Origin: a virus
Virus record (IMG/VR): IMGVR_UViG_3300028573_000042
Span: 1 to 31,996 of that record
Strand: one strand, 5' to 3'
DNA length: 31,996 bases
Shown here: positions 1-25,329 of the stretch, in pieces
How the letters are laid out: every line of letters begins with the position of its first letter
Numbering within the stretch: the first letter of the stretch is position 1
Position numbers and translations under genes: made by a program
Notes under the pieces: model-generated
The model's database searches: none
Told to the model about the DNA's origin: nothing
What the model saw: the letters and a program-made list of their open reading frames with translations, nothing else

Positions 1-3000
1 CCACGCCAGAACCCGCCCGGATCACCGACGAATCCTTTCAAAGCCTCCGCTATCTTACGGTCGTTGATCTTGTAAACATCTATCGAGCCATCTGGGTGAT
101 GGACGAAGAATTTATTAGGACCATAATAACTAGCTTTCTCTAGCTCGGCCTCGCGATCAGCAAAGCTGATTGGCTTCTGAGTCATCCTTCTGCCGAGGAT
201 ATGTCCCTGATCAATAAGCCGCCCAGCTTCCTTGGTAATACCGTCTTTGCCGTAACGCGTAGAGGCTTTGCTAGCGTCTGCTATTACCTGCATAAACGAA
301 TTATCGGAGACGGTCTGGCGTCCACCCATAGCGCGGGGGGACTGATTCATATCTCCGCTTACACCCTTGTCGCCCGTTAGATTAAACCGCTCTTGGTTTT
401 TGCGAGCGCCGGGGTCGCCCTTGAGAGGCATGTAATGTTTCCAGTCGTACAGCCCAATGATGCTGTCTACTTTGTCAGAGCGAAACCCAGACATACGGCT
501 ATACTTGGCTTCTAGGTCCTGAAGATTTTTAGCCAGAGAAAACATCTTGTCGATTTCAGGTCCATACTTTTTCATGTCTTCAGTATGAGTATCCTGAATG
601 ATCTGCTTAGCCTTGGGTGTGTATACTTCTCCAGCTACGTTATAGACTTTGTGATTAATATCTATAGACATAGATCTGGGCTTAGATGAGGACTTAACCG
701 GGCTAAACCCATCTTTGTCAGCGTGGTTCTTGGCCAGATACTCTTTTATCTGACGATCATGGGCCTGTTCAGCGGCGCCGGGCGCGGTAGTCTTATATTT
801 CTCGTCAATTAACTTGCGGAGATCAGCTGGGGTACCCTTAAGAGGATTACCGTTTACGTCTTTTAAAGTAATTTCAGTTCCGGGTTTATCTTGCAGCGGT
901 ACGTCCTGCAACCATCGCTCCATACGACGTTCGGGTTCGTGACGCGCCACAACATAGGTCTGGAGACGCTTTAAAGTGTCATCCATGGACTTACCAATTT
1001 TATGAGAGAATTCGGCAATGGCTGAATTAAGATCCCGGATTACCGGGATAATCTCTTTGTTAGCCATCTCTGTAATTGAATTCTGCCGCGACATCATATC
1101 GGCAATATTCGTACTGTCCCTACCAGACCTGTTCAGTTGTTCTTGTATAACCTGCATAGGCCGATAGTAATTCTGAAGTAATCTAAGAGCTTCTTCTTTA
1201 GCCTCATAGCTATTGGTTTTGAACGCCTGTGCGACTGTTCTAACAAACCCCTGCTTAGTGGTCTGCTCGCGGTAAAGCTTACTTTGCTCCGACGAAGTAT
1301 TGCGCTCGATATCGTTGATATCGTTTTCTTCTAGTGCGGGGGCTTTCTTAGTGACAGCCATCTCTTCCATATCTGGCTTAATAATACCGTCCCAAGCACG
1401 TTCATCTGCGGGTCCTAGTTTATCCAAAAAAAGCTTCATACTAGAAGCTGGCAGATAAGTTTTACCTGTTACAATGGATGCAAGCTTACGCATAGCTTGC
1501 CCCATGCTTTTAAAGAACTTATCTACAAGAGTTAATGGCTTATCAGACGTAGTAGCCCACCGTGAAGTCTGATCAGCAAACCATTCGCTGAAAGAAGTCC
1601 AATAAGGATTAGTCTTTACCTTTTCGTCGGATACATTATTTAGTTTTTCTGATTCGGCTATATTCCTATTACGCAGATAGGGTATTAATTCCTTAGCATC
1701 CATTTTCTGGGCGTGCCGAAGCCATTGATTATAATCTTTGAAAATAGCGTCACGTGTGGCTTTATCAGCAGCTTTAAAGTGAGTGCGCTGTAGCATATGC
1801 CCGACTTCATGAGCGATAGTTTCAACGACTACGCCGGGCGGGCTATTGTGCGCATCATTCCGTAAAACAATAAAAAAATCTTTATTGTCTTTCCCAAACG
1901 CTCCCATAGTACTAAAAGAATTCCTATGGAAATAGTCAAATATTTTATTATGTTCTCCGCCTAGATTATATTTATTAGGATTTTCTATAAGATCATCGGC
2001 GTGTGCTAAAAATGTATTTACATTACCGAGACCTACCTGCTTTAGTAGCCCCTGTAGATAGTCTCTATATTCCGGTTTAATTTTATCTGAAGCTACGACA
2101 TTAGACTTAGCATTAAGAAACGGTCCCTCAAAATGCTCCGCTAGTTTCGCAATGCGGGATTCTATTGTCGGTTCTGCTGCTTGTGTACTAGGTGGTTTCG
2201 GAACCTCCGCAGCAGCTTCCTTTGCCCGGCGAGCCATGAACTCTTCAACTGACTCGGTGGCCCCAGTAGATGCTTTAGGGACTGGGGTAGTGGTCCGTAC
2301 AGCTCGCTCACCAGTAATCCAGTTGCGGATTTTTCTAAGGTTGGGTTCTCCACTATCATTGGTGGCCTCCGCATAAATCTTGGTAAACGTAGGCCCATCT
2401 ACCAACCCAAGCTCATGAGCTTGCTGGGCAATTGCTAATAGTTCATCTCCACTGGCTTTCTGGATATCTTGCTTCTGTAGCCATTCTTTCTTGTCGGTTG
2501 TAGTTTTGACGGGAACTGGTTTCTCGTCTGGTTCTGGCAGCCGGGTAGCTTCTTTTAATAGATTAGCTACGTAATCGTGATCAGGCGTAGCTGATTTTAG
2601 TTCGCCTTGAAGCTGGTCATACGTATGAGTATCTATATGACCCTTTATATACGCCCGCTCAGTAAGGGCTAGTAGCTTATTAGTCTGCGGATCAGACTTT
2701 TCGTATAGTAAGTTCTTTAGATAATCCTTGGTCGCCCCGTAATAATCTAATGGAGCGTGAGCTGCTTCTTCTGCCACAGGGTGTCCGTCAGCAGCTGCTG
2801 GATGACCAGCCACTCCTGTTCGTTCAGCTTCAAAAGGGAGAGGGACGTGGGTATCTGGTTGTGATACAGGCAGTTCCACGCTTCCTCTAGGTCCTGAAGC
2901 GACATCTCCAGCACTGCTTCGTGCGGGCTCTCCATCTGGTTTTGCTGGTTCTGGTCCATTAGCCGGTTCCTCTGCTTTTGCCGGTTCGACTATTTTCCAT

Positions 3001-4097
3001 TTATCACCGTCACGCGCTACAAGTCCAGTCTTCTTCATCGTGTTTAGATGGCCCACGACGCTATTCCACTTTAGATTAACTTCTTTAGCTATATCTTTAG
3101 CGGTAGCTGGCCCAGAAGCAGTAAGAAAGTCCTTTACTGCTTGTCTATTAGACGCCTTGGTCTCCGGTGATATAGAAGTATTAGCCTCACCCGGAAGGAT
3201 CGGCTCCACAGGCTTAGCTACGTCTGGCGTCGCGGCTACAGGTGGAGGAACCTGTGTGGCCTGTGGAGCCGAAAGTGGTGGTGTAGGTTCCGGAGTCGCA
3301 GCTACAGGTGCGGGTTCCGGCGCCGCCGTTGCAGGCCCAACACCCTCGCTAGAAGGTGAAGCTGCGGGCAGCGGCTCAGCAGCGGGCGACGTCGGAGTGG
3401 GGATTGTAGCGGGTTTTCCGGCTAGGCGTTCACCTAACCCGAATACTTTCTTGCCAAGTGCAGTCTCATGGCTCAGCGCGCCACCTAGTAATGCTGATTC
3501 CCCTGCGCTGGTCCAGTCAATGTTTTTATTACCTTCTAATTTCTGTTGGGCTACATCTGTCGCGCCGCCTATACCTGCATTAACTGCCGCGAGCTTACGT
3601 GCAGTATAAATTTCTTTAGCGGCAGCTTCAGACAGCCCCGCAGTAGATTTTAACGCGGTAAGCGACGGCCTAAAAAACGCAAGTTGGGGGGCTAACTCCG
3701 CTATTTTTTGGGTAACAGGATAAGCTTGCTGTTCCGCTTCTTGCTGTTCTGGATTTTGCTTAAGCCACTTAGCAGCTTTAGGAAACTCTTCTAGCATCTT
3801 TTGCTGGAGCTTTCCCGCTCCATATCCGCCAGCAACACCACCTAAAATAGCCCCAGCAGCGGTACCTATACCGGGCATCACCATAGTGCCCAATTCTGCA
3901 CCCGCACCTGCCGCAGCGAGCGCCCCACCTACCGGGGCTATTTGACGCTCGACAGCGTGACCAGCCGTACCAGCTTGGGATACTTGGGGTCGATTATTAT
4001 AGTCGTTAAGATAATTCTTAAGACGGCCAATCAGCGCTGGGTCTGGATTATCCGGCATCTGAACTTGCGTCCCATCCGGCATCATCACTATCGGCAT
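1..4097 (-). CDS. Giant internal/ejected virion protein with winged-helix and HEXXH zincin domains (C-terminus off the left edge)
   Basis: The frame is open from an ATG at 4097 to base 1, at least 1365 codons, with no stop seen. Domains in order: a Gly/Ala-rich hydrophobic stretch (about residues 35-75) that could cross or disturb a membrane; helical segments; a Pro/Ala/Glu-rich linker (about 205-300); a winged-helix-like domain (about 316-369, ending in a KWKIV wing-like strand); and a zincin site HEVGH at 763-767 with a likely third ligand Glu838 in SEWFAD. Charged helical regions follow, resembling the large polyvalent protein-associated domains of phages (YMPLKG near residue 1223). The start lies 1 base after the stop of the 660-aa gene. 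By size, position and composition it is probably packaged in the head and ejected into the cell. That role is inferred; the peptidase fold is well supported, its substrate unknown. Confidence 0.8.
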   Translation of the reverse strand, partial: MPIVMMPDGTQVQMPDNPDPALIGRLKNYLNDYNNRPQVSQAGTAGHAVERQIAPVGGALAAAGAGAELGTMVMPGIGTAAGAILGGVAGGYGAGKLQQKMLEEFPKAAKWLKQNPEQQEAEQQAYPVTQKIAELAPQLAFFRPSLTALKSTAGLSEAAAKEIYTARKLAAVNAGIGGATDVAQQKLEGNKNIDWTSAGESALLGGALSHETALGKKVFGLGERLAGKPATIPTPTSPAAEPLPAASPSSEGVGPATAAPEPAPVAATPEPTPPLSAPQATQVPPPVAATPDVAKPVEPILPGEANTSISPETKASNRQAVKDFLTASGPATAKDIAKEVNLKWNSVVGHLNTMKKTGLVARDGDKWKIVEPAKAEEPANGPEPAKPDGEPARSSAGDVASGPRGSVELPVSQPDTHVPLPFEAERTGVAGHPAAADGHPVAEEAAHAPLDYYGATKDYLKNLLYEKSDPQTNKLLALTERAYIKGHIDTHTYDQLQGELKSATPDHDYVANLLKEATRLPEPDEKPVPVKTTTDKKEWLQKQDIQKASGDELLAIAQQAHELGLVDGPTFTKIYAEATNDSGEPNLRKIRNWITGERAVRTTTPVPKASTGATESVEEFMARRAKEAAAEVPKPPSTQAAEPTIESRIAKLAEHFEGPFLNAKSNVVASDKIKPEYRDYLQGLLKQVGLGNVNTFLAHADDLIENPNKYNLGGEHNKIFDYFHRNSFSTMGAFGKDNKDFFIVLRNDAHNSPPGVVVETIAHEVGHMLQRTHFKAADKATRDAIFKDYNQWLRHAQKMDAKELIPYLRNRNIAESEKLNNVSDEKVKTNPYWTSFSEWFADQTSRWATTSDKPLTLVDKFFKSMGQAMRKLASIVTGKTYLPASSMKLFLDKLGPADERAWDGIIKPDMEEMAVTKKAPALEENDINDIERNTSSEQSKLYREQTTKQGFVRTVAQAFKTNSYEAKEEALRLLQNYYRPMQVIQEQLNRSGRDSTNIADMMSRQNSITEMANKEIIPVIRDLNSAIAEFSHKIGKSMDDTLKRLQTYVVARHEPERRMERWLQDVPLQDKPGTEITLKDVNGNPLKGTPADLRKLIDEKYKTTAPGAAEQAHDRQIKEYLAKNHADKDGFSPVKSSSKPRSMSIDINHKVYNVAGEVYTPKAKQIIQDTHTEDMKKYGPEIDKMFSLAKNLQDLEAKYSRMSGFRSDKVDSIIGLYDWKHYMPLKGDPGARKNQERFNLTGDKGVSGDMNQSPRAMGGRQTVSDNSFMQVIADASKASTRYGKDGITKEAGRLIDQGHILGRRMTQKPISFADREAELEKASYYGPNKFFVHHPDGSIDVYKINDRKIAEALKGFVGDPGGFWR

Positions 4098-4098
4098 T

Positions 4099-6081
4099 TT
4101 AATGGCCAGCGTTTGTTAGGTAATCGTTCAGACTCATAACAGGTTGGCCACCACCAGCACCAGCCCCACCACCCGTGTCATTCCGAAATTCATTTATCCA
4201 ATTCTGCATATAAGTACGCTGTTCTGGCTTTAGATTCTGATTAGTGGCCAACTGTCGAGAATAACTCTGGAACGTCTGAGGCCCAGCGGTACCATACTTA
4301 GCCCTAATCTGAGCTTCGTCTAGCCCAACCTGTGCCCTCGCCTGCGCGGATTGCACGGTAGGCATATTGGCCGCGAGCTTCTTCTGGAAGTCCAGCAGCT
4401 CCTCTTCCGAAGCATTCGGGTTCTTCATCAGCCAGTTGGCGGCGATCATAGCCTCTGGAGTACCCTTGTACCCACCCATGATAGTAGCCCTCGCCGCTAC
4501 TTGCGCCATTTCTTTACTGTACATTAGTTCCACCGCGCGAATTCTAGCCGCGTCTACACGCGCGGTAAGATTATCATAACGAGTCAAGGCGTTATTGTAA
4601 GACTGCAACGCTTCCTTATCTGCGTTCATCTTTATGTTTTCTTGCGCCTCCTGCACCTGATAGCGAGACTCCATGGCCTTCATATTCAAGTCACGGTATT
4701 TCTCTATATTCTCTTGGTAAGCTTTAGCGCCTTCCTGCCCACCAACAGCCAACGCACCTAAGAACCCACCATGAGGATTCTCAGTAGCAGCGCGGGCCAT
4801 GCCTAACCCCATCTGAATCATGGCCATGCTATTACCCTTAGATTGCAGCTGGGACAGCTGACCTTGTAGCTGGTCTAGATAAGCAAGATGTTCTTTAGCG
4901 GCAGCGCCTATGCCTTGCTGGCTATATACCTTCATAAGATCATCAGAGTGAGACTGAACGGTACCTACAGCCTGCCTAGCCATATCAGCATCGGCCTGAT
5001 CTTTATTAAGCTCTTGCTGCATCCCACTCGGAATACCGTTAGGCCCACTACTAGTACGGGCGGACATGCTAGCAGTAGCGCCGGCATTATTAGGCCCTCC
5101 CGGAGCACCCTGCTGTGCTGGTGGGGGTGGAGCACCTTGTGGCACTGGAGCGTTAGGTCCCATCGGGCGTTGCTGATCGAACAAACCCGGAGGCGGGGTA
5201 CCCGGCCCTACTGGCGAGGAAGGTTTCGGCGGCGGTGGCGGCGCGGCGGACGCGGCTGGCTGAATAGGCGCGGTATTAATAGTACCCGGAGCGGGGCGTG
5301 TAACTGCACGAAATGGAGAATTAGGAGAAATTTCGTTTGTTCTTGGATCTACGTTAGGATGTCTAACGAGATCAATTAATTCTCTAAACCCTTCACCGGG
5401 GGTACCAGTGGGGTCTCCAGCAGTATCTCCGCCGCCATCAAACTTGCGGATATAGCCTCCTTCTTTGTTCTGCTGGACTTGCTGGGGTGCCACCCCGAGT
5501 TTCTGACCCTTAGCAAGATAGTTTTGAGCGTTGGCTCGTTGCCAATCAGCGAGCTGACGCTTGTAAATCGCGGCGGTTTGCGATTGAAGATCCGTTTCGC
5601 TGTCATCGTCTACGTCTCCACCCTCGGCCATCCCCGGACCCTGAGCAATGGTACTAGCCTGCTGCTGATTTTGCTGGCTCATTAGATTCTGCAAAAACTG
5701 ATTCTGCATCTGAGCTGAATAATCACTGGGATCATTGCCCATCGTGGCCATGCCACCGTCGTCAAAGGCAATAATCCCCCCGCTCGCCATATTGAAAGTA
5801 CTATTCGGGACCGGCAAACCAGAAATACCTTGCCCACGCTGAGCAGATGCGGCGTTTAGTTGATTATCTAGATCTTGCGATACGGTAGTAGGTTGCTGTT
5901 TCTGTGGCTGATTAGCGGCAGACTGCTTCAGCATCCGGTACTTCATGACCAGAGAAGCTAATCTTGGATCTACGCCCTTGGACAATAGATAACTAACCGC
6001 CTTGTCTGGCGGCAGCTTCTGTTTCTCTATTTGTTCCTCGGCCTGCGCTACAGCGGGGTCGAGTTGGCTAAGCCCACTCAT
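4099..6081 (-). CDS. 660-aa Gln/Pro-rich virion protein with GG-motif, likely ejection protein
   Basis: I do not recognise a named family. The N-terminal 55 residues are helical. Two copies of a glycine-framed motif follow, SGGIIAFDDGG (about 98-108) and EGGYIRKFDGGG (about 206-217), with a related MAEGGDVDDD between them. A Pro/Ala/Gly-rich linker (about 270-345, with runs of four or five prolines) leads to a long Gln/Ala/Met-rich helical region (about 360-600) that looks coiled-coil-forming, and the C-terminus has a Gly-rich stretch. The start ATG overlaps the stop of the 311-aa gene by four bases (ATGA). It sits between the Gln-rich protein and the giant zincin protein, so an internal or ejected virion protein is the natural inference. 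A tail-associated role is the alternative. Confidence 0.7.
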   Translation of the reverse strand: MSGLSQLDPAVAQAEEQIEKQKLPPDKAVSYLLSKGVDPRLASLVMKYRMLKQSAANQPQKQQPTTVSQDLDNQLNAASAQRGQGISGLPVPNSTFNMASGGIIAFDDGGMATMGNDPSDYSAQMQNQFLQNLMSQQNQQQASTIAQGPGMAEGGDVDDDSETDLQSQTAAIYKRQLADWQRANAQNYLAKGQKLGVAPQQVQQNKEGGYIRKFDGGGDTAGDPTGTPGEGFRELIDLVRHPNVDPRTNEISPNSPFRAVTRPAPGTINTAPIQPAASAAPPPPPKPSSPVGPGTPPPGLFDQQRPMGPNAPVPQGAPPPPAQQGAPGGPNNAGATASMSARTSSGPNGIPSGMQQELNKDQADADMARQAVGTVQSHSDDLMKVYSQQGIGAAAKEHLAYLDQLQGQLSQLQSKGNSMAMIQMGLGMARAATENPHGGFLGALAVGGQEGAKAYQENIEKYRDLNMKAMESRYQVQEAQENIKMNADKEALQSYNNALTRYDNLTARVDAARIRAVELMYSKEMAQVAARATIMGGYKGTPEAMIAANWLMKNPNASEEELLDFQKKLAANMPTVQSAQARAQVGLDEAQIRAKYGTAGPQTFQSYSRQLATNQNLKPEQRTYMQNWINEFRNDTGGGAGAGGGQPVMSLNDYLTNAGH

Positions 6082-7013
6082 CCACCACTACCAAACAACC
6101 CAGCCAGACCCGTGGCCGCAGTTCCCAGTCCAGCAACCTGACCGAGTACATTGGGGGTCTGTTGGTAATTTGCGTACACGCCAGAACCGGCTGCGGTGGA
6201 CGCGGTGCCGTGAAGAATATCAGACATATAGCCAAGCTGAGCATAGGGATAATTCTGCTGGTTGATAAAGTTCTGGTAGTTAGTATTGAGCTGTTCTTGC
6301 TCCAGATTCTGCGCGCTAGTACCAGCGCCCATCTGAGCAGATGCAATACCGGCTTGCTGCCCATACTGCTGGCCTCCAAGAGTACCAAGCGCCCCGGCAG
6401 CGTTAAGCTGCGAGTTGGCTGCGTTGAGCTGCGTCTGCTGCTGAGTATTAAACTGATTCTGGGCGTTCTGAAACGCACTCTGATAGCCTTGAGCAGTAAT
6501 GCCTTGCAGCTGACCCTGTAGCTGACCACCTAGCTGTGACTGCATGAGAGCTTGACGCGAAGAGCCTAGATTACCCGTGTTCTGCGCTGTAGACCCCAGC
6601 GTGGGAAGATTATTAGCGTAACCTTGGATAGCCTGTGCCTGCTGCTGTTTAACAACATCCTGTGTGTAAGGCGACATATACTGGTTAACAGTATCACCAG
6701 TAAAAGAAGTATTACCTACATTCTGGGCCTGCTGACCGGCCAACCCCGCCAGCCCTGTACCCTGATTAATCTGGCCAGCGGGGGTCATGCCCTGAATAGT
6801 ATTCATCGACTGCTGCTGGAGCGGGTTAAACCCAGCAACCATCTGGCCCTGATACTGTTGATAAGGATTAGTTGCTAGATTAGTAAGCGCGGAAGCCTGC
6901 GGCAGCAGACCGTTAATAGACCCACTCCCCATAACATACGGCTGCGCGTAGTCAGGGATATTAGACGTGGTAGTCGTCGTATTAGTAGGGGATGAACTGC
7001 CGCCGCCGCACAT
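6078..7013 (-). CDS. 311-aa Gln/Asn-rich internal virion protein
   Basis: The protein is very rich in Gln, Asn, Gly and Ala and begins MCGGGSSS, with Cys at position 2. Conserved-looking blocks are GQMVAGFNPLQQQ (about 56-68), YMSPYTQDVV (112-121) and NLGSSRQAL (148-156), then Gln/Ala/Asn helices and a Gly/Ala-rich C-terminus. From memory, these blocks recur in an unnamed family next to tail and ejection genes in many environmental short-tailed phages. The composition resembles DNA-ejection proteins such as P22 gp7 and gp20, but I see no clear homology. A GGGGGA ribosome site sits about 7 bases before the ATG, and the start is 2 bases after the acetyltransferase stop. Role in DNA ejection is inferred. 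Confidence 0.72.
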   Translation of the reverse strand: MCGGGSSSPTNTTTTTSNIPDYAQPYVMGSGSINGLLPQASALTNLATNPYQQYQGQMVAGFNPLQQQSMNTIQGMTPAGQINQGTGLAGLAGQQAQNVGNTSFTGDTVNQYMSPYTQDVVKQQQAQAIQGYANNLPTLGSTAQNTGNLGSSRQALMQSQLGGQLQGQLQGITAQGYQSAFQNAQNQFNTQQQTQLNAANSQLNAAGALGTLGGQQYGQQAGIASAQMGAGTSAQNLEQEQLNTNYQNFINQQNYPYAQLGYMSDILHGTASTAAGSGVYANYQQTPNVLGQVAGLGTAATGLAGLFGSGG

Positions 7014-7015
7014 GG

Positions 7016-7474
7016 TTAATCCCCCGCCATAAATGTAGCGCCAATAAGCTTTAGCCCCATTTTCTGGAGGGCTTTAATTTTATTCTCGGTATCATCCATG
7101 TTGAAAATATTTACAACCAAAGGCTTTTCCTGTTCTTCCGCGTAAATTCTAGCCATGCCCAATAAACTACTACCTACTTTAGATAATCTGTGTTCTGGTA
7201 ATACGTAAAACCATCCGTCAGTATAATATTCCGTGTCACTATACCACGGAGTCGTCTTATAAATACCAATACTTCCAATAATTTTACCATCTTCTTCGGC
7301 TATCCAAGCCCCGTGTTCAATACACTTAGTAACCCAAAGTGCCCCTTTAGGAATATTCTGCCCCTGATTCGCGCCCAGCTTCCCCATATTATGTTCTTGC
7401 CCAAAGTTATATATAAGAAAGTCTGCTAATGCTTTGAAGTCGTCGGTGGTTTTTTGGATCTTGCGAATTTTCAC
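7016..7474 (-). CDS. GNAT-family N-acetyltransferase
   Basis: The 152-aa protein has the size and layout of a single-domain GNAT enzyme, which transfers acetyl from acetyl-CoA to an amine. A strand GKIIGSIGIYK is followed by a strand ending WFYVLPEHR, a loop and helix RLSKVGSSLLGMARIYAEE in the place of the acetyl-CoA pyrophosphate loop, and a C-terminal strand-helix (IFNMDD...ALQKMGLKLIG). The usual R/QxxGxG/A signature is relaxed here to RLSKVGSS. The start is GTG, overlapping the upstream stop by four bases (GTGA), with AGGGG about 11 bases upstream. The coupling to virion genes suggests co-expression with late proteins. The substrate cannot be read from sequence and could be a virion or a host protein. 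Confidence 0.82.
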   Translation of the reverse strand: MKIRKIQKTTDDFKALADFLIYNFGQEHNMGKLGANQGQNIPKGALWVTKCIEHGAWIAEEDGKIIGSIGIYKTTPWYSDTEYYTDGWFYVLPEHRLSKVGSSLLGMARIYAEEQEKPLVVNIFNMDDTENKIKALQKMGLKLIGATFMAGD

Positions 7475-9780
7475 GCTGGCATCAACCCCTGTGCATTAAC
7501 CTGTGGAGCCTGTGCTTTCTTGCCTGTACGGGCCTGTCGTATACGATCCATCATTTGATATAGCCGCTTCGATCCTGCTTCCGTGGACCCATTACCTAGA
7601 TGGGATACCACGTCAGCCGGGACGACAAATTCTCCATCGCCAAGCGCGGCTGGTTCTGGGGGCCTGTTGCCACCTACAATCTGGGCCGGGATACTGTCAC
7701 TCATGCCATCACCGGGACCTTTAAGCAGGCGTCCTTGGCTAAGTGCAGTAAGCCCGCCCGGAGCATATCTTTTGATCTGCCCGCCCTGCTTAGAACCATA
7801 AATACCTGTAGAACTAAGATAATTACTGCCTCCGGCATTATCGTTAGTATTCTCGGTATAAAAGGGCTGTGAATAGTCGTACTGTGAAGGATCATAAGCC
7901 GGCGCCGCCGCATCCGGAGTTACATATGTCCCCGTAGTAGTTCCATCTGCGCTAATTCCAGTATTATCTACATACGGGCTATTTATAAAGGGCTGGCTGG
8001 CTATATCATTATAAGCCCCACCGGGGTTACTTTGATCTAATGTAAAATTAGCGTCGTTCGTAGCGTTAGTCTGAGCATTATTATAAGTAGCATTAGCCTG
8101 CTGACTAGGCGTCAATCCAGAAATATAATTAGTAGCATTACCAAGCCCAGTGGCTATTCCAGCCGTTGTGTTGAACCCAATACTATTTAATCCCGCCCCA
8201 ATAAGTTTTAGAGGATTATATGTACCCGCATTAGAAGGAACCACATTTAGCTGCGACGGCGGACTACCATTATCTTGTGATGCATAATAATCCGGGCTAC
8301 TAATATCCTGTGCTGTAGCATTAGGCCCCGAAGTATTAGAATTACTCTGATCAGTAACAGGAAACCCCGTAGAAGGGTCTACCATTACTTGAGTGCCCAC
8401 TGGAGTATTACCAGTAAGACTTGGAATGCCCGCAGCTGGAGTTTGAGAAGTACCAGACGGATTCGGGCTATTAGTAGTTCCATTGGCAATACCTCCACTC
8501 GTCGGCGGGGCTTTAAAAGAATTATTTAGATTCTGTAAATAGTTAGTCCAATCACCGGACGGTGGGGCCGCATGTACTTGCTGCGCCTGCTGTTGCTGAC
8601 CTTGTGTAATCTGGTTTTGATACTGTTGAATTAGCGCCGCCTGTTGTGGATTTGTTGGCGTAAGTGGCGTCGCCTGCGGAGCAGCCTGATTAGGCTGCGC
8701 GGCTCCAGTAAGAGTCTGAGCAGCTTGAGCAGTTCCGGCAGGAAGAGTAGTGCTAATCCCACCAGTATCATAATGTTTGATAGACCCACCATGTCTATAA
8801 TTCCCCATATAAATAGGAGTGGAGTACCCCTGTCCAAGTATTGGCAACTGCCCCGGCCCCGGATGAGGATTTTGCGTACCTCTATTATATTGTTCTTTAT
8901 ATAGGGGATAAGTGGGTTTAGCTGGGATCTGCTGTTGGTTAAGGTACGACTGGTACATAGCCGGCGCAGCCGCTTCCATAAGGCTATATTTACCAGAATT
9001 CGCGGCGACATCGCCTAGCGCTTGGCTAGAAGTCATACTGTCAGAGCCGCCCGCAAGAGTTCTAAGTCCTTGCCCAAACTGCTGGCCAGTAAAGCCATTA
9101 GAAACAGAAGAAGCTTCATTGGCGCGGATACCCGACGTAGCTGCCTGCTGAGCGGCTTGGCCAGAAGTAATAAATTTTAACTGGCCGTTCTTGCCCGTTG
9201 TAGCTACAACCTGATTAGGATCTTGCGTAGGTGTAACAGACGTGGCTGGCGTAGTATCCGTAGCAATCCCGCTAGGTCCTTCCATGGGCTGAAGCCCAGA
9301 AGAATCAGTAGGCGTGGCTGCGGCCGGATCGTTGGCGAGTGAAGAATTCGTAGCCGCCGAAGCAGCCTGATCGGCCGTGGATTGCGCACCAACTCCAGCA
9401 ATCCCACTAGCAATATTAGCCCCACCATACGCACCCAAACCAGCTGTCAAACCAGACATAAACGCGGTCTTGTGATTAATAGCAGCGTCAGCGGCGCCAA
9501 CAATAAGCCCAGCGGCAGGAGCGCCTACCCCTGTTGCAGCAAGTACGCCGCCAGCGATTGTAGGAAGGATACTATCAAGCCAGCCAGCTTCCAGCAGGCC
9601 AGTATGAGGATTACGGGTAAGACTGCCACCAGCAGCCATAGCCAATTTTTGAAGGCCATCTACTTCCTTATTGCTCATATGCACGAGCTGAGAATCAGGC
9701 CCACGCCCCAATGCCGCGATCCCACGAGATAGATCAAAGTGGGATTTCTGAGTCTGCGGATGGAGCATTCTCTGACTCAT
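7471..9780 (-). CDS. 769-aa Gly/Ala/Asn-rich internal virion protein with GG-motifs and conserved C-terminal domain
   Basis: I chose the ATG at 9780 (MSQRML) because it gives an ATGA overlap with the upstream gene and has GGTGA nearby; a TTG five codons upstream is less likely. Residues about 45-60 (LAMAAGGSLTRNPHTGLLEAG) precede an Ala/Gly-rich hydrophobic region (about 65-135) suited to membrane insertion. A long low-complexity Thr/Asn/Gln/Pro/Ser middle follows. Two glycine-framed motifs, HGGSIKHYDTGG (about 328) and QGGQIKRYAPGG (about 663), come before a compact C-terminal domain with GPGDGMSDSIPA and DGEFVVPADVVSHLGNGST. From memory, that last block recurs in virion proteins of marine and freshwater podophages. 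The likely role is an internal ejection-channel protein, by position and composition only. Confidence 0.72.
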   Translation of the reverse strand: MSQRMLHPQTQKSHFDLSRGIAALGRGPDSQLVHMSNKEVDGLQKLAMAAGGSLTRNPHTGLLEAGWLDSILPTIAGGVLAATGVGAPAAGLIVGAADAAINHKTAFMSGLTAGLGAYGGANIASGIAGVGAQSTADQAASAATNSSLANDPAAATPTDSSGLQPMEGPSGIATDTTPATSVTPTQDPNQVVATTGKNGQLKFITSGQAAQQAATSGIRANEASSVSNGFTGQQFGQGLRTLAGGSDSMTSSQALGDVAANSGKYSLMEAAAPAMYQSYLNQQQIPAKPTYPLYKEQYNRGTQNPHPGPGQLPILGQGYSTPIYMGNYRHGGSIKHYDTGGISTTLPAGTAQAAQTLTGAAQPNQAAPQATPLTPTNPQQAALIQQYQNQITQGQQQQAQQVHAAPPSGDWTNYLQNLNNSFKAPPTSGGIANGTTNSPNPSGTSQTPAAGIPSLTGNTPVGTQVMVDPSTGFPVTDQSNSNTSGPNATAQDISSPDYYASQDNGSPPSQLNVVPSNAGTYNPLKLIGAGLNSIGFNTTAGIATGLGNATNYISGLTPSQQANATYNNAQTNATNDANFTLDQSNPGGAYNDIASQPFINSPYVDNTGISADGTTTGTYVTPDAAAPAYDPSQYDYSQPFYTENTNDNAGGSNYLSSTGIYGSKQGGQIKRYAPGGLTALSQGRLLKGPGDGMSDSIPAQIVGGNRPPEPAALGDGEFVVPADVVSHLGNGSTEAGSKRLYQMMDRIRQARTGKKAQAPQVNAQGLMPA

Positions 9781-10163
9781 TGATTCACCAACCAATCCGT
9801 TGAATTAGAATTACTAGCACTACAATTTATCGTAAAGCCACTCGCTAACTTATTAGTAACCCAACAGTACCCAGCCGCGTTCCCAGACAAAGCTACAGAA
9901 TAAGTATTATTAGGTTGAATCTGATTAGGCGTAAAAACTACATTAACTGTTGTGGACGCATTAAATGTAGCCGTTCCACTTACGTCCGCAGCGTCAGCAA
10001 GTATATTCAAATTCAAAGCATTACACAACTGTGTAAAGAATAACCTTAGAATATTATTATTCCCTACCGCATATACACCAGAATACGTATTCGGCGGTAC
10101 CGGCAAGTTAGGCGGGGACACCGTAACCGGAGTAGTAGTACTGATTATGCGTTGTATACTCAT
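9777..10163 (-). CDS. 128-aa beta-rich small virion protein
   Basis: After a Pro-rich N-terminus, the protein has a short hydrophobic helix (about 38-55, NILRLFFTQLCNALNLNIL) and then alternating strands rich in Thr, Asn and Ser (FNASTTVNVVFTP, NTYSVALSG, GYCWVTNKLASGFTIN). The pattern SGFTIN...S after a YSV strand resembles a small beta domain that often ends phage tail fibres, so it may be a detachable receptor-binding or cap subunit. It starts 3 bases after the nozzle-gene stop and overlaps the 769-aa gene by ATGA. Two cysteines (in GYCWV and INCSAS) lie near each other in sequence, but nothing shows whether they pair. I do not recognise a named family. Confidence 0.62.
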   Translation of the reverse strand: MSIQRIISTTTPVTVSPPNLPVPPNTYSGVYAVGNNNILRLFFTQLCNALNLNILADAADVSGTATFNASTTVNVVFTPNQIQPNNTYSVALSGNAAGYCWVTNKLASGFTINCSASNSNSTDWLVNQ

Positions 10164-18504: not shown

Positions 18505-18819
18505 TTAACTCTCCTGTTTGGATAGTATTTCATCTACTACTTGATCGAAGGTTTTGCACGTAAGGGTCTTCGCTTTTACCGCCGCGCAATCATCACATAT
18601 TAGATGATCACAACCCCGACAATAAGAGCGCTCACGAGTTCTATTCGGGTTTAAAATTACCACTCTTTGACAATGTTTGCAAGTGAAACTTGGTGCTTCA
18701 AACAAACCTCTACCAGCCCCCATTGGTAAACCTGCCTGTACTATTAGTTCATCAGGTACAGGTGCTCCATGACGATGATCCATCATGAAATAGCCTTCTT
18801 GGTCGCGTAAAGTTTTCAT
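18505..18819 (-). CDS. 104-aa zinc-binding (treble-clef/RING-like) phage protein
   Basis: Cysteine pairs CKHC (47, 50), CRGC (67, 70) and CDDC (75, 78), plus Cys88, form a zinc-binding pattern able to hold one or two metal ions. The N-terminal 45 residues are polar and variable. The core CxxC...NPNRTRERSYCRGCDHLICDDC matches an unnamed small-protein family I recall among structural genes of environmental phages. I chose the ATG at 18819 (MKTLRD) over the one at 18825: it gives an ATGA overlap with the 250-aa gene, and an AGG lies 7 bases upstream. Possible roles are a virion neck protein stabilised by zinc or an assembly factor. Nothing shows ubiquitin-ligase activity. Confidence 0.75.
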   Translation of the reverse strand: MKTLRDQEGYFMMDHRHGAPVPDELIVQAGLPMGAGRGLFEAPSFTCKHCQRVVILNPNRTRERSYCRGCDHLICDDCAAVKAKTLTCKTFDQVVDEILSKQES

Positions 18820-19568
18820 AGACATACCTGAGACATTAGAGGGACCGAAGGAAGATAAGAATAAGGTATTCCAAGAGTGTAATAATGCCCAGTACTGCCA
18901 TTAACAGGGTCAGTAAAAGTAGAACTCCCGTTACTTTCTGGACCTATCTGCTGAGATTCTACTACCATTGACATATTAGTAGAAAAAACAGTGGACGCCG
19001 CCGAAATAATAGTGGTGCCTCCAGTTCCAGAAACTACGTTTGCAGGGGGAGTTTGGCCGCAAAAATTAAACCCTATCATTAAATAAGGCCCACTATTTAC
19101 AAAATAAGCCCCCGTATTAACTGATTTAATAGCATCTGTAGCTGTACCCGGAAAGGTATAAATTGCAGAGTAATTATAAGTAACCCCACTAATTTGAGAT
19201 ATACTATACACACCAACTGTATTAGCTATCTCTAAAATTATAATACCCGCGTTAGTAACTGCTGTAGTATAATTTACAGTTACAGTATTACTACCAGAAA
19301 CAACCCTGTCACTGTTTTGTACCATATAGTAGGGAGTCCCAGATGGATTAAGAGTAGTACCCCTTAAATTAGATATTTGGGAATAATTATTCCCCGAAGT
19401 ATCTGTAATATTATTAAACTTGTCAATTGCTACGCCATTGTCAAATACACCAAGAACTAATATAGAGCTACCCGCTTGGACAGAACTAGGAAATGTAGCT
19501 GATATACTAGATACTGCACTAGCACTAAAATTAGAAGCCAATTGAGCTACAACAGTGGGTAAACTCAT
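18816..19568 (-). CDS. 250-aa beta-sandwich adhesin-like virion protein
   Basis: After a short N-terminus, residues about 25-110 show a beta-sandwich pattern: SVQAGSSILVLGVFDNG, ITDTSGNNYSQI, PYYMVQNS and VSGSNTVTVNYTT. The same pattern (AGxxxLV, then TDxxGNxY) occurs in the neighbouring 790-aa protein, so this is probably a shorter relative made of one such domain plus a C-terminal half. There is no signal peptide or catalytic motif. The gene is AT-rich (23 of 60 bases G+C at 19141-19200), unlike the 790-aa gene. An AGGAT ribosome site lies 8 bases before the ATG. A tail appendage or receptor-binding role is inferred. Confidence 0.7.
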   Translation of the reverse strand: MSLPTVVAQLASNFSASAVSSISATFPSSVQAGSSILVLGVFDNGVAIDKFNNITDTSGNNYSQISNLRGTTLNPSGTPYYMVQNSDRVVSGSNTVTVNYTTAVTNAGIIILEIANTVGVYSISQISGVTYNYSAIYTFPGTATDAIKSVNTGAYFVNSGPYLMIGFNFCGQTPPANVVSGTGGTTIISAASTVFSTNMSMVVESQQIGPESNGSSTFTDPVNGSTGHYYTLGIPYSYLPSVPLMSQVCL

Positions 19569-23482: not shown

Positions 23483-23884
23483 CTAACTCGCTGTAGCCGT
23501 TATATGGCCTATGGAAGTCACTGTAACCAAGGCATTCGGAATATTTAGTTCAGTACTAGGTTCATTATTTCCAACGAAATTAAATCCCCCGCCTACCGGG
23601 TTAAATCCCCATTGGCTCATCCTGCTACCCCCGGTACCATCATTACCATTCTCATAATAGCCAGCTTGGTCTGGTCTAGGATTCCTGACCCCGTAGTTAT
23701 CTTCAACAGGATACATGCCAAGCTGTAACTGCGGATGATCAGGATCATAACACTCTGGGCAAGCCATTATACCCGTAATTTTAGTTTTAATCACCAAGGC
23801 TCTTAGTTCAGTAAGCTTATACCGGAACCCACAAACATCGCATTCTGCGATGCTATTTTTGCCAGAACTATATTTACTACTCAT
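23483..23884 (-). CDS. 133-aa zinc-ribbon phage protein
   Basis: Cys15/Cys18 (ECDVCGFRYKL) and Cys42/Cys45 (ACPECYDPDHPQ) make a classic zinc ribbon, followed by a polar segment with VRNPRPDQAG and a C-terminal Gly/Asn-rich tail that ends in short strands. The CGFRYKLxxLR and CxxCxDPxHPQ blocks recur, as I recall, in an unnamed family coded beside neck and adaptor genes of environmental phages. The start overlaps the 247-aa adaptor gene stop by ATGA, so the two are translated together. It may be a zinc-stabilised neck protein. DNA binding is possible, but nothing in the sequence argues for it. Confidence 0.8.
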   Translation of the reverse strand: MSSKYSSGKNSIAECDVCGFRYKLTELRALVIKTKITGIMACPECYDPDHPQLQLGMYPVEDNYGVRNPRPDQAGYYENGNDGTGGSRMSQWGFNPVGGGFNFVGNNEPSTELNIPNALVTVTSIGHITATAS

Positions 23885-24843: not shown

Positions 24844-25329
24844 TTAACGAAAATTCCCACGAGTATGACCGCGCTCAGCAATACCATCACCGCGAACGCT
24901 ACCACCTTTAGCATAATGATGCTTGGCGCGTCCACCTTTCTTCATAGCTACTTTCTTACCATGATGATCTTTATCTTCGCCCTTGAGGGGCCACTTCTTT
25001 TCTGGCTCTTGTTCGTTCTTCAGGGTTTCACCGCCAGCGGCGAATTTCTTAACCTTCCCGCCCTTCTTCATCTGCGGCATACCACCATCAGTAGATGGGC
25101 CGGCTGCGGCATTGGGCGGAGGCGCGGCAGACTGATCGGCCAGCGCGGCCGGGAGCCTCGGCTTTAGTGATTTCATATGTCCACCCTTCTTCATGTGCTT
25201 TCCTTGAGCCTTATCGGCTGCAACAAAATCTTTAGCTACCTTCTCACTCGGCCCACCGCCACCCGGCTTTCTCCACCCGTGCGCTGCGGCGCGCATGAGC
25301 CTAGCCTGTGCGGGGCTTGTAGACGGCAT
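24844..25329 (-). CDS. 161-aa Lys/Gly-rich KKGG protein
   Basis: An N-terminal helix SPAQARLMRAAAHGWRK (about 4-20) and VAKDFVAADKAQ lead into a basic, glycine-rich region with three MKKGG boxes: MKKGGHMK, MKKGGKVKKFAAGG and MKKGGRAKHHYAKGG. It ends SVRGDGIAERGHTRG. An Ala/Pro linker lies between boxes 1 and 2. The last two boxes match the glycine-framed motif of the 660-aa and 769-aa proteins. From memory, proteins with this KKGG...RGxGxxxRGxTxG ending are common in head-tail regions of uncultured phages and have no known role. The high charge suggests DNA or partner-protein binding. It sits between virion genes, 3 bases after the 99-aa gene stop. Confidence 0.75.
   Translation of the reverse strand: MPSTSPAQARLMRAAAHGWRKPGGGGPSEKVAKDFVAADKAQGKHMKKGGHMKSLKPRLPAALADQSAAPPPNAAAGPSTDGGMPQMKKGGKVKKFAAGGETLKNEQEPEKKWPLKGEDKDHHGKKVAMKKGGRAKHHYAKGGSVRGDGIAERGHTRGNFR

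Follow-up and report, generated by a model that had tools for sequence, protein, structure and literature searches.

IMGVR_UViG_3300028573_000042 is a complete IMG/VR record of 31,996 bp, and the window analysed here, i.e. the whole stretch of DNA at its full length, spans all of it. One end is occupied by a giant open reading frame on the minus strand, which starts with an ATG at position 4097 and is stop-free down to base 3, encoding at least 1365 residues; since the window is the entire record, the gene is truncated by the contig end. Its start codon is backed by a TAAAATG coupling with the preceding gene, a single base separating the stop of the latter from the start of the giant, and by relatives whose N-terminal cap is similar. 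The genes considered here are the following.

3..4097, minus strand: giant polyvalent/ejection protein, residues 1-1365, an open frame with its 3' end lost at the contig end
4099..6081, minus strand: 660-aa protein, probable second ejection protein, in the same gene order as in L164 and other relatives
6078..7013, minus strand: 311-aa DNA ejection protein (phrog_4287, E=2.8e-24)
7474-7016, minus strand: GNAT
27220-26309, minus strand: capsid protein, with several structural proteins also on the minus strand
31995-30145, minus strand: portal-like protein

The giant is thus encoded among virion or late genes, with the portal, the capsid and the ejection protein on its own strand. The 311-aa ejection protein is 59% identical to its counterpart in L082, and the 660-aa protein has an equivalent of 662 aa with a similar N-terminus in L164, the nearest relative. 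The small-medium-giant gene order recurs in relatives, in the Microcystis phage Mae-Yong1326-1 and in phage N4 (gp52-gp51-gp50). The succession of 311-aa ejection protein, 660-aa protein and giant matches the pattern of a podovirus ejection-protein trio. Along the giant itself, the following parts can be distinguished.

3999..4097, minus strand: N-terminal cap, residues 1-33 (MPIVMMPDGTQVQMPDNPDPALIGRLKNYLNDY), of a type with which many related giants also begin
3822..3944, minus strand: Gly/Ala-rich, moderately hydrophobic stretch, residues 52-92
3168..3422, minus strand: first Pro/Ala-rich acidic linker, residues 226-310, 27% Pro
2985..3167, minus strand: winged helix-turn-helix (wHTH), residues 311-371, net charge +4, pI 9.7
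2748..2984, minus strand: second Pro/Ala-rich acidic linker, residues 372-450, 18% Pro
1398..2138, minus strand: zincin-like metallopeptidase domain, residues 654-900
1797..1811, minus strand: HEVGH motif, residues 763-767
1584..1586, minus strand: Glu838, predicted third zinc ligand, in SFSEWFADQ
3..1373, minus strand: conserved C-terminal trunk, residues 909-1365, with about 600 more residues including LPD38 expected past the contig end

Searching viral contigs with the whole giant recovered no relatives, tblastn in a phage collection gave a weak match in just one phage, and a near-DNA search in phages gave nothing; relatives were collected via the conserved neighbour genes. Complete ones measure 1932-2454 aa. 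A Pfam scan of five complete relatives (L164, L165, L166, L169 and L170) detected LPD38 in each, and two annotated phage giants with a domain link also have it at the C-terminus, which makes 7/7 of those checked; in the window giant, its place falls beyond the contig end. The trunks of two sets of giants align over 859 columns (E 2e-121), and BLAST coverage with several giant queries, taken across 41 giants, mostly stays at 0-8 ahead of the zincin and rises to about 10-25 along most of the trunk, the zincin itself also being conserved. On the variable side, 50 sampled proteins carry FtsK-gamma winged helices in four cases (L225, L227, L232 and L249), ART-PolyVal in three, ddrB-ParB in two, and sigma-r4, HTH_23 and an IclR-type domain in one each.

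A preliminary description of this DNA had called the N-terminus suited to membranes. The Gly/Ala-rich stretch is indeed present, but its hydrophobicity is just moderate (best 19-residue Kyte-Doolittle mean 1.45), so that the label is weak; Gly-zipper Pfam matches occurred in 2/50 relatives. Tape-measure matches of the giant in phrog were dismissed as matches to Ala/Gly-rich composition. The Pro-rich linker previously reported turns out to be two linkers, one on either side of the winged helix. The latter had been placed at about residues 316-369, and this position is right: residues 312-368 match the MarR profile phrog_1687 (E=2.7e-7), the region is conserved in L164, which aligns with residues 301-518 of the window giant at 28% identity (E 1e-14; GHLNTMKKTGL / GHLNTLKREGL), and an AlphaFold2 model spanning residues 296-390, run with three sequences, has helices at 311-328, 333-339 and 344-357 and strands at 360-363 and 366-369, with a core pLDDT of 87-89. 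The structure prediction that had been suggested as a check therefore yielded the three-helix-and-wing order, and the suggested comparison with MarR-like winged helices was positive both with phrog_1687 and with Foldseek, whose matches (E 1e-3 to 1e-2) include Z-alpha, IclR, MarR, SelB, FtsK-gamma and LexA, those to Z-alpha domains being the best. Pfam HTH families match the region below cut-off. A third, weaker winged-helix match is L190, and MarR/IclR-like wHTH domains, present in the window giant, are rare in sampled relatives: L190 is the only other one that combines such a domain, weakly, with the same zincin clade. A search of viral contigs with the wHTH alignment recovered L164's phage alone.

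More specific names for this domain were rejected. We dropped that of MarR regulator because the dimerisation part is absent: no MarR/IclR-type dimerisation or ligand domain lies beside the wHTH, which has Pro-rich flanks and forms only a core in the 296-390 model. Membership in the Z-DNA-binding Z-alpha domains fails in the alignment; of the DNA contacts of these domains, which we take to be an Asn and a Tyr of the recognition helix and a Trp of the wing, the Asn/Tyr sites are occupied by V347 and N351, and Trp366 alone fits. A PADLOC match to Csa3 covers the wHTH only. We infer that the winged helix probably binds DNA: as a basic domain on two long acidic Pro-rich tethers, it would probably attach to the phage DNA as this enters, or to an early promoter/operator. 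It is unlikely that it serves instead as a protein-interaction module, directed for example to host RNA polymerase or another ejection protein. This possibility is favoured by the fact that protein binding is common among winged helices and by the lack of Z-DNA-type contacts, but the domain is basic and its linkers are acidic, and DNA-reading domains, FtsK-gamma among them, fill the same variable region in relatives.

The intact HEVGH...E zincin site reported earlier at residues 763-767 and Glu838 is exactly there, conserved in relatives and supported by a confident model (pLDDT 88, pTM 0.86, 51 sequences), in which HEVGH lies within one helix, preceded by three strands as in the zincin-like MPTase, and Glu838 within a later helix. 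By composition, 0.05 HExxH motifs would be expected in the giant. Seventeen positions (E759, H763, E764, G766, H767, A777, R809, Y832, F836, E838, W839, A841, D842, W847, F861, F862 and P883) are invariant in the 51 sequences and likewise in an 83-sequence alignment; HExxH and EWxAD were search patterns, so that their invariance is partly built in, and A777, R809, Y832, W847, F861, F862 and P883 lie outside these patterns. Residues 654-900 thus qualify as a zincin-like metallopeptidase with predicted proteolytic activity, of the type HE[LV]GH / SFxEW[YF]AD. Peptidase M78 (IrrE-like, PF06114) had no match above its curated cut-off in the window giant, and weak M78-like matches occur in 27/51 relatives (best E 6e-5). 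Several of the best Foldseek matches of the domain are zincins, all of them weak (E of at least 0.09), with ArdC lower down. A search of genome contigs with the zincin gave four loci, in bins or genomes of Legionella, Endozoicomonas, Acinetobacter and Methylophilaceae.

The protease differs between close relatives. Apart from the winged-helix region, L164 matches the window giant at residues 36-226 (E 7e-27) and 909-1365 (E 2e-76). At the place of the zincin, it has HEALGH at 717 (FHEALGHYG...DEVLANASE), an HExxxH form described as a separate set by Iyer et al. (PMC5512222); the zincin of the window giant has no match in L164 and instead matches L168 (E 8.5e-31) and L169 (E 2e-29). Because L164 shares the N-terminal part, the wHTH and the trunk with the window giant and has a different protease, the protease module has changed against a background of retained cargo and trunk, without loss of the catalytic residues.

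The place of the protease stays about the same. All 14 non-redundant giants of one homology group, gathered mainly through the ejection protein or the trunk (L169 was chosen via a zincin match), have HExxH or HExxxH 1002-1437 aa from the C-terminus, with 0.8 expected from shuffles. In 41 non-redundant complete zincin giants, 1028-1747 residues follow HExxH (mean 1185) and 831-1847 precede it; the 80 zincin giants were found by zincin motifs, so that zincin conservation among them is partly built in. The zincin hence sits at a near-constant place between a changeable N-terminal cargo and a conserved trunk.

This plan recalls the virion RNA polymerase of N4, gp50 (Schitoviridae), which is the largest of three ejection proteins, as proposed for the window giant; the N4 order gp52, gp51, gp50 parallels the 311-aa protein, the 660-aa protein and the giant. 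All three N4 proteins serve in ejection, and gp50 itself is ejected into the cell (PMC12633501). The 3500-residue gp50 contains a single HELVH, at 2228, which leaves 1273 aa up to the C-terminus; the N4-type zincin aligns in hhalign with that of the HExVH giants at 97% probability (E 1.3e-10) and with a larger set at 81%. When alignments of the two trunks, C2 of N4 and LPD38, were compared, no homology was detected (9.7% and 16% probability), and no RNA polymerase family matches residues 1-1365 of the window giant, whereas N4 gp50 matches clearly. Since the polymerase is absent from the window giant, this is a likeness of plan and not membership in the N4 type. Tentatively, with somewhat better than one chance in three, a single blueprint might underlie many podovirus-like largest ejection proteins, N4 vRNAP included: an N-terminal cap, an exchangeable cargo, a zincin with some 1.0-1.4 thousand residues after it and a conserved trunk. 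The zincin would serve generally as a protease for cargo release, open to replacement by another clade at an unchanged place, and the N4 polymerase would be one cargo among others, the winged helix being that of the window giant.

More broadly, the window giant belongs to the phage polyvalent proteins (Iyer et al. 2017, PMC5512222), like which it has a very long chain, disparate domains, an HExxH with a Glu in a later helix and a virion-gene setting; their LPD38 is C-terminal in relatives, and the window contig stops before that part. The earlier assignment to large polyvalent proteins with a protease is supported, a wHTH and a zincin of unrelated activities being carried on one long chain. 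FtsK-type wHTH and other HTH domains are already known in polyvalent proteins (PMC5512222). The order of domains, which the preliminary description could not name, is usual in these phages as variable cargo, zincin and C-terminal LPD trunk. The DarB-like giants of JC1 (gp69) and Bcep22 (gp75) are LPD38 giants, virion-associated and encoded where the block of virion genes ends. JC1 gp69 has 4515 aa, with LPD38 at 4195-4401, and gave 51 unique peptides in mass spectrometry of CsCl-purified virions (PMC9144972). These giants differ by matches to transglycosylase, methylase/helicase and LPD3, and zincin is absent from the paper's table. The giant of Mae-Yong1326-1 (UUJ74515.1) resembles ours in its HELGH at 954, its SFQEWAAE and its position as the third of three genes after the packaging block, with a GNAT gene a few genes upstream as a shared feature; it differs in its 2441 aa, in the detection of LPD1 rather than LPD38 and in having no wHTH match. 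As this phage is described as long-tailed, with a tail of 340 nm, the plan is not confined to podoviruses. P1 DarB was rejected as a near relative, as it lacks HExxH and has a different N-terminus. P1 DdrB is processed, for which Iyer et al. proposed autoproteolysis by its MPTase, and N4 vRNAP is packaged unprocessed (PMC5512222); the former supports self-cleavage and the latter a packaging role.

We favour, with a probability of about 0.6, the reading of the giant as a podovirus-type largest ejection protein of the polyvalent class, virion-packed and injected, with exchangeable cargo and a zincin that is most likely self-cleaving. Of the three ejection proteins that this probable podovirus would encode, it would be the largest, carried in the virion and entering the host along with the phage DNA. 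Its N-terminal side would be the exchangeable cargo, here a winged helix, and the zincin at the border between cargo and trunk would most likely cut its own polypeptide, freeing the cargo during assembly or after entry. Ejection together with the DNA, as previously suggested, is very probable by homology, considering the ejection-protein synteny, LPD38 in relatives and the JC1 proteomics; action of the zincin on its own chain stands, taken separately, slightly below an even chance.

A rather doubtful alternative is that the zincin-like domain serves chiefly in structure or packaging, the winged helix anchoring the giant at the end of the genome within the capsid or ejectosome. It draws on N4, where the zincin region is required for encapsidation according to Iyer et al. 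(PMC5512222), where the C-terminal domain represses the polymerase (PMC12633501), and where 15 N4-type proteins have HExxH 1038-1361 aa from the C-terminus, mostly at 1230-1313. A purely structural part would nevertheless sometimes be expected to lose its catalytic residues, and the catalytic H, E and H are retained in every relative examined, even through the clade swap. Less probable still is the use of the protease mainly against host proteins, an action envisaged initially; it would then be an effector cleaving, for example, defence or regulatory proteins right after entry, with the winged helix as a second effector acting on host promoters. Iyer et al. allow such a role for some MPTases (PMC5512222), and the clade swap between close relatives could reflect shifting host targets, but the zincin is near-universal and fixed at one place by the trunk whatever the cargo, which is atypical of host-directed effectors and fits processing, release or packaging better, and other likely effectors (ART, ParB-like, PBECR) occupy the variable part. 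A chimeric contig with its junction at the zincin, which would make the domain combination an assembly artefact, is hardly credible despite the different protease of L164 at this point, given the single unbroken frame, the zincin's location where the family predicts it and the same zincin clade in L168 and L169, giants of like plan.

The polyvalent class, its zincins, its HTH domains and the idea of injection were published in 2017 (PMC5512222); the rare pairing of wHTH and zincin, the fixed position of the protease, its change of clade and the parallel drawn with N4 are apparently new with respect to the literature. For N4 vRNAP, a zincin fixed between cargo and trunk in many phage giants offers a testable idea of what its own zincin and very large C-terminal domain might do, namely form a delivery chassis that includes its protease. 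Should release of the cargo be real, these giants would act as natural vehicles for protein injection, the winged helix being in that case a regulator that enters the host ahead of any phage gene expression.

A GNAT acetyltransferase gene stands directly before the genes for the ejection proteins, and Microcystis phage Mae-Yong1326-1 carries one too, a few genes ahead of its own giant protein. Three proteins of the window that otherwise differ from one another each contain two copies of a short motif, GGxIxxFDxGG, against an expectation of 0.1-0.2 copies per protein for a pattern that was defined after the motif had been noticed. Two small proteins with Cys motifs are also encoded; the 106-aa one matches FYVE/RING-type domains weakly and its gene has structural genes on either side.

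3999-4097, minus strand: N-terminal cap (residues 1-33) of the giant
4099-6081, minus strand: protein with two GGxIxxFDxGG copies
7016-7474, minus strand: GNAT acetyltransferase gene
7471-9795, minus strand: protein with two GGxIxxFDxGG copies
18505-18825, minus strand: 106-aa protein whose Cys pattern, CKHC...CRGCDHLICDDC, resembles a zinc finger
23483-23884, minus strand: 133-aa zinc-ribbon-like ORF, two CxxC pairs (CDVCGF, CPECYD)
24844-25329, minus strand: protein with two GGxIxxFDxGG copies

The Mae-Yong1326-1 giant (UUJ74515.1; OP028995.1, locus L255, 6202-13527) carries the annotation peptidoglycan transglycosylase. This name looks doubtful: LPD1 is the only Pfam match above cut-off, and the chain contains a zincin of the same type as the window giant.

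Upstream of the zincin, the related phage giant L232 bears an FtsK-gamma winged helix (about residues 530-588) that matches the Pfam family very closely (E 1.5e-25) and may read host KOPS sites; the giants L225, L227 and L249 have such winged helices, also upstream of the zincin, at about residues 518-707.

At least three kinds of cap recur at the N-termini of the giant and relatives, followed by cargo that differs between giants: one is a DG...P type, another an ADAAGD helix type, and a third consists of short repeats in tandem (WTQYQ or FDQFD, for example). Residues 1-30 of P1 DarB serve as a capsid-targeting signal (PMC9024508), although the P1 sequence is not similar to the caps. The recurring caps may act as packaging signals.
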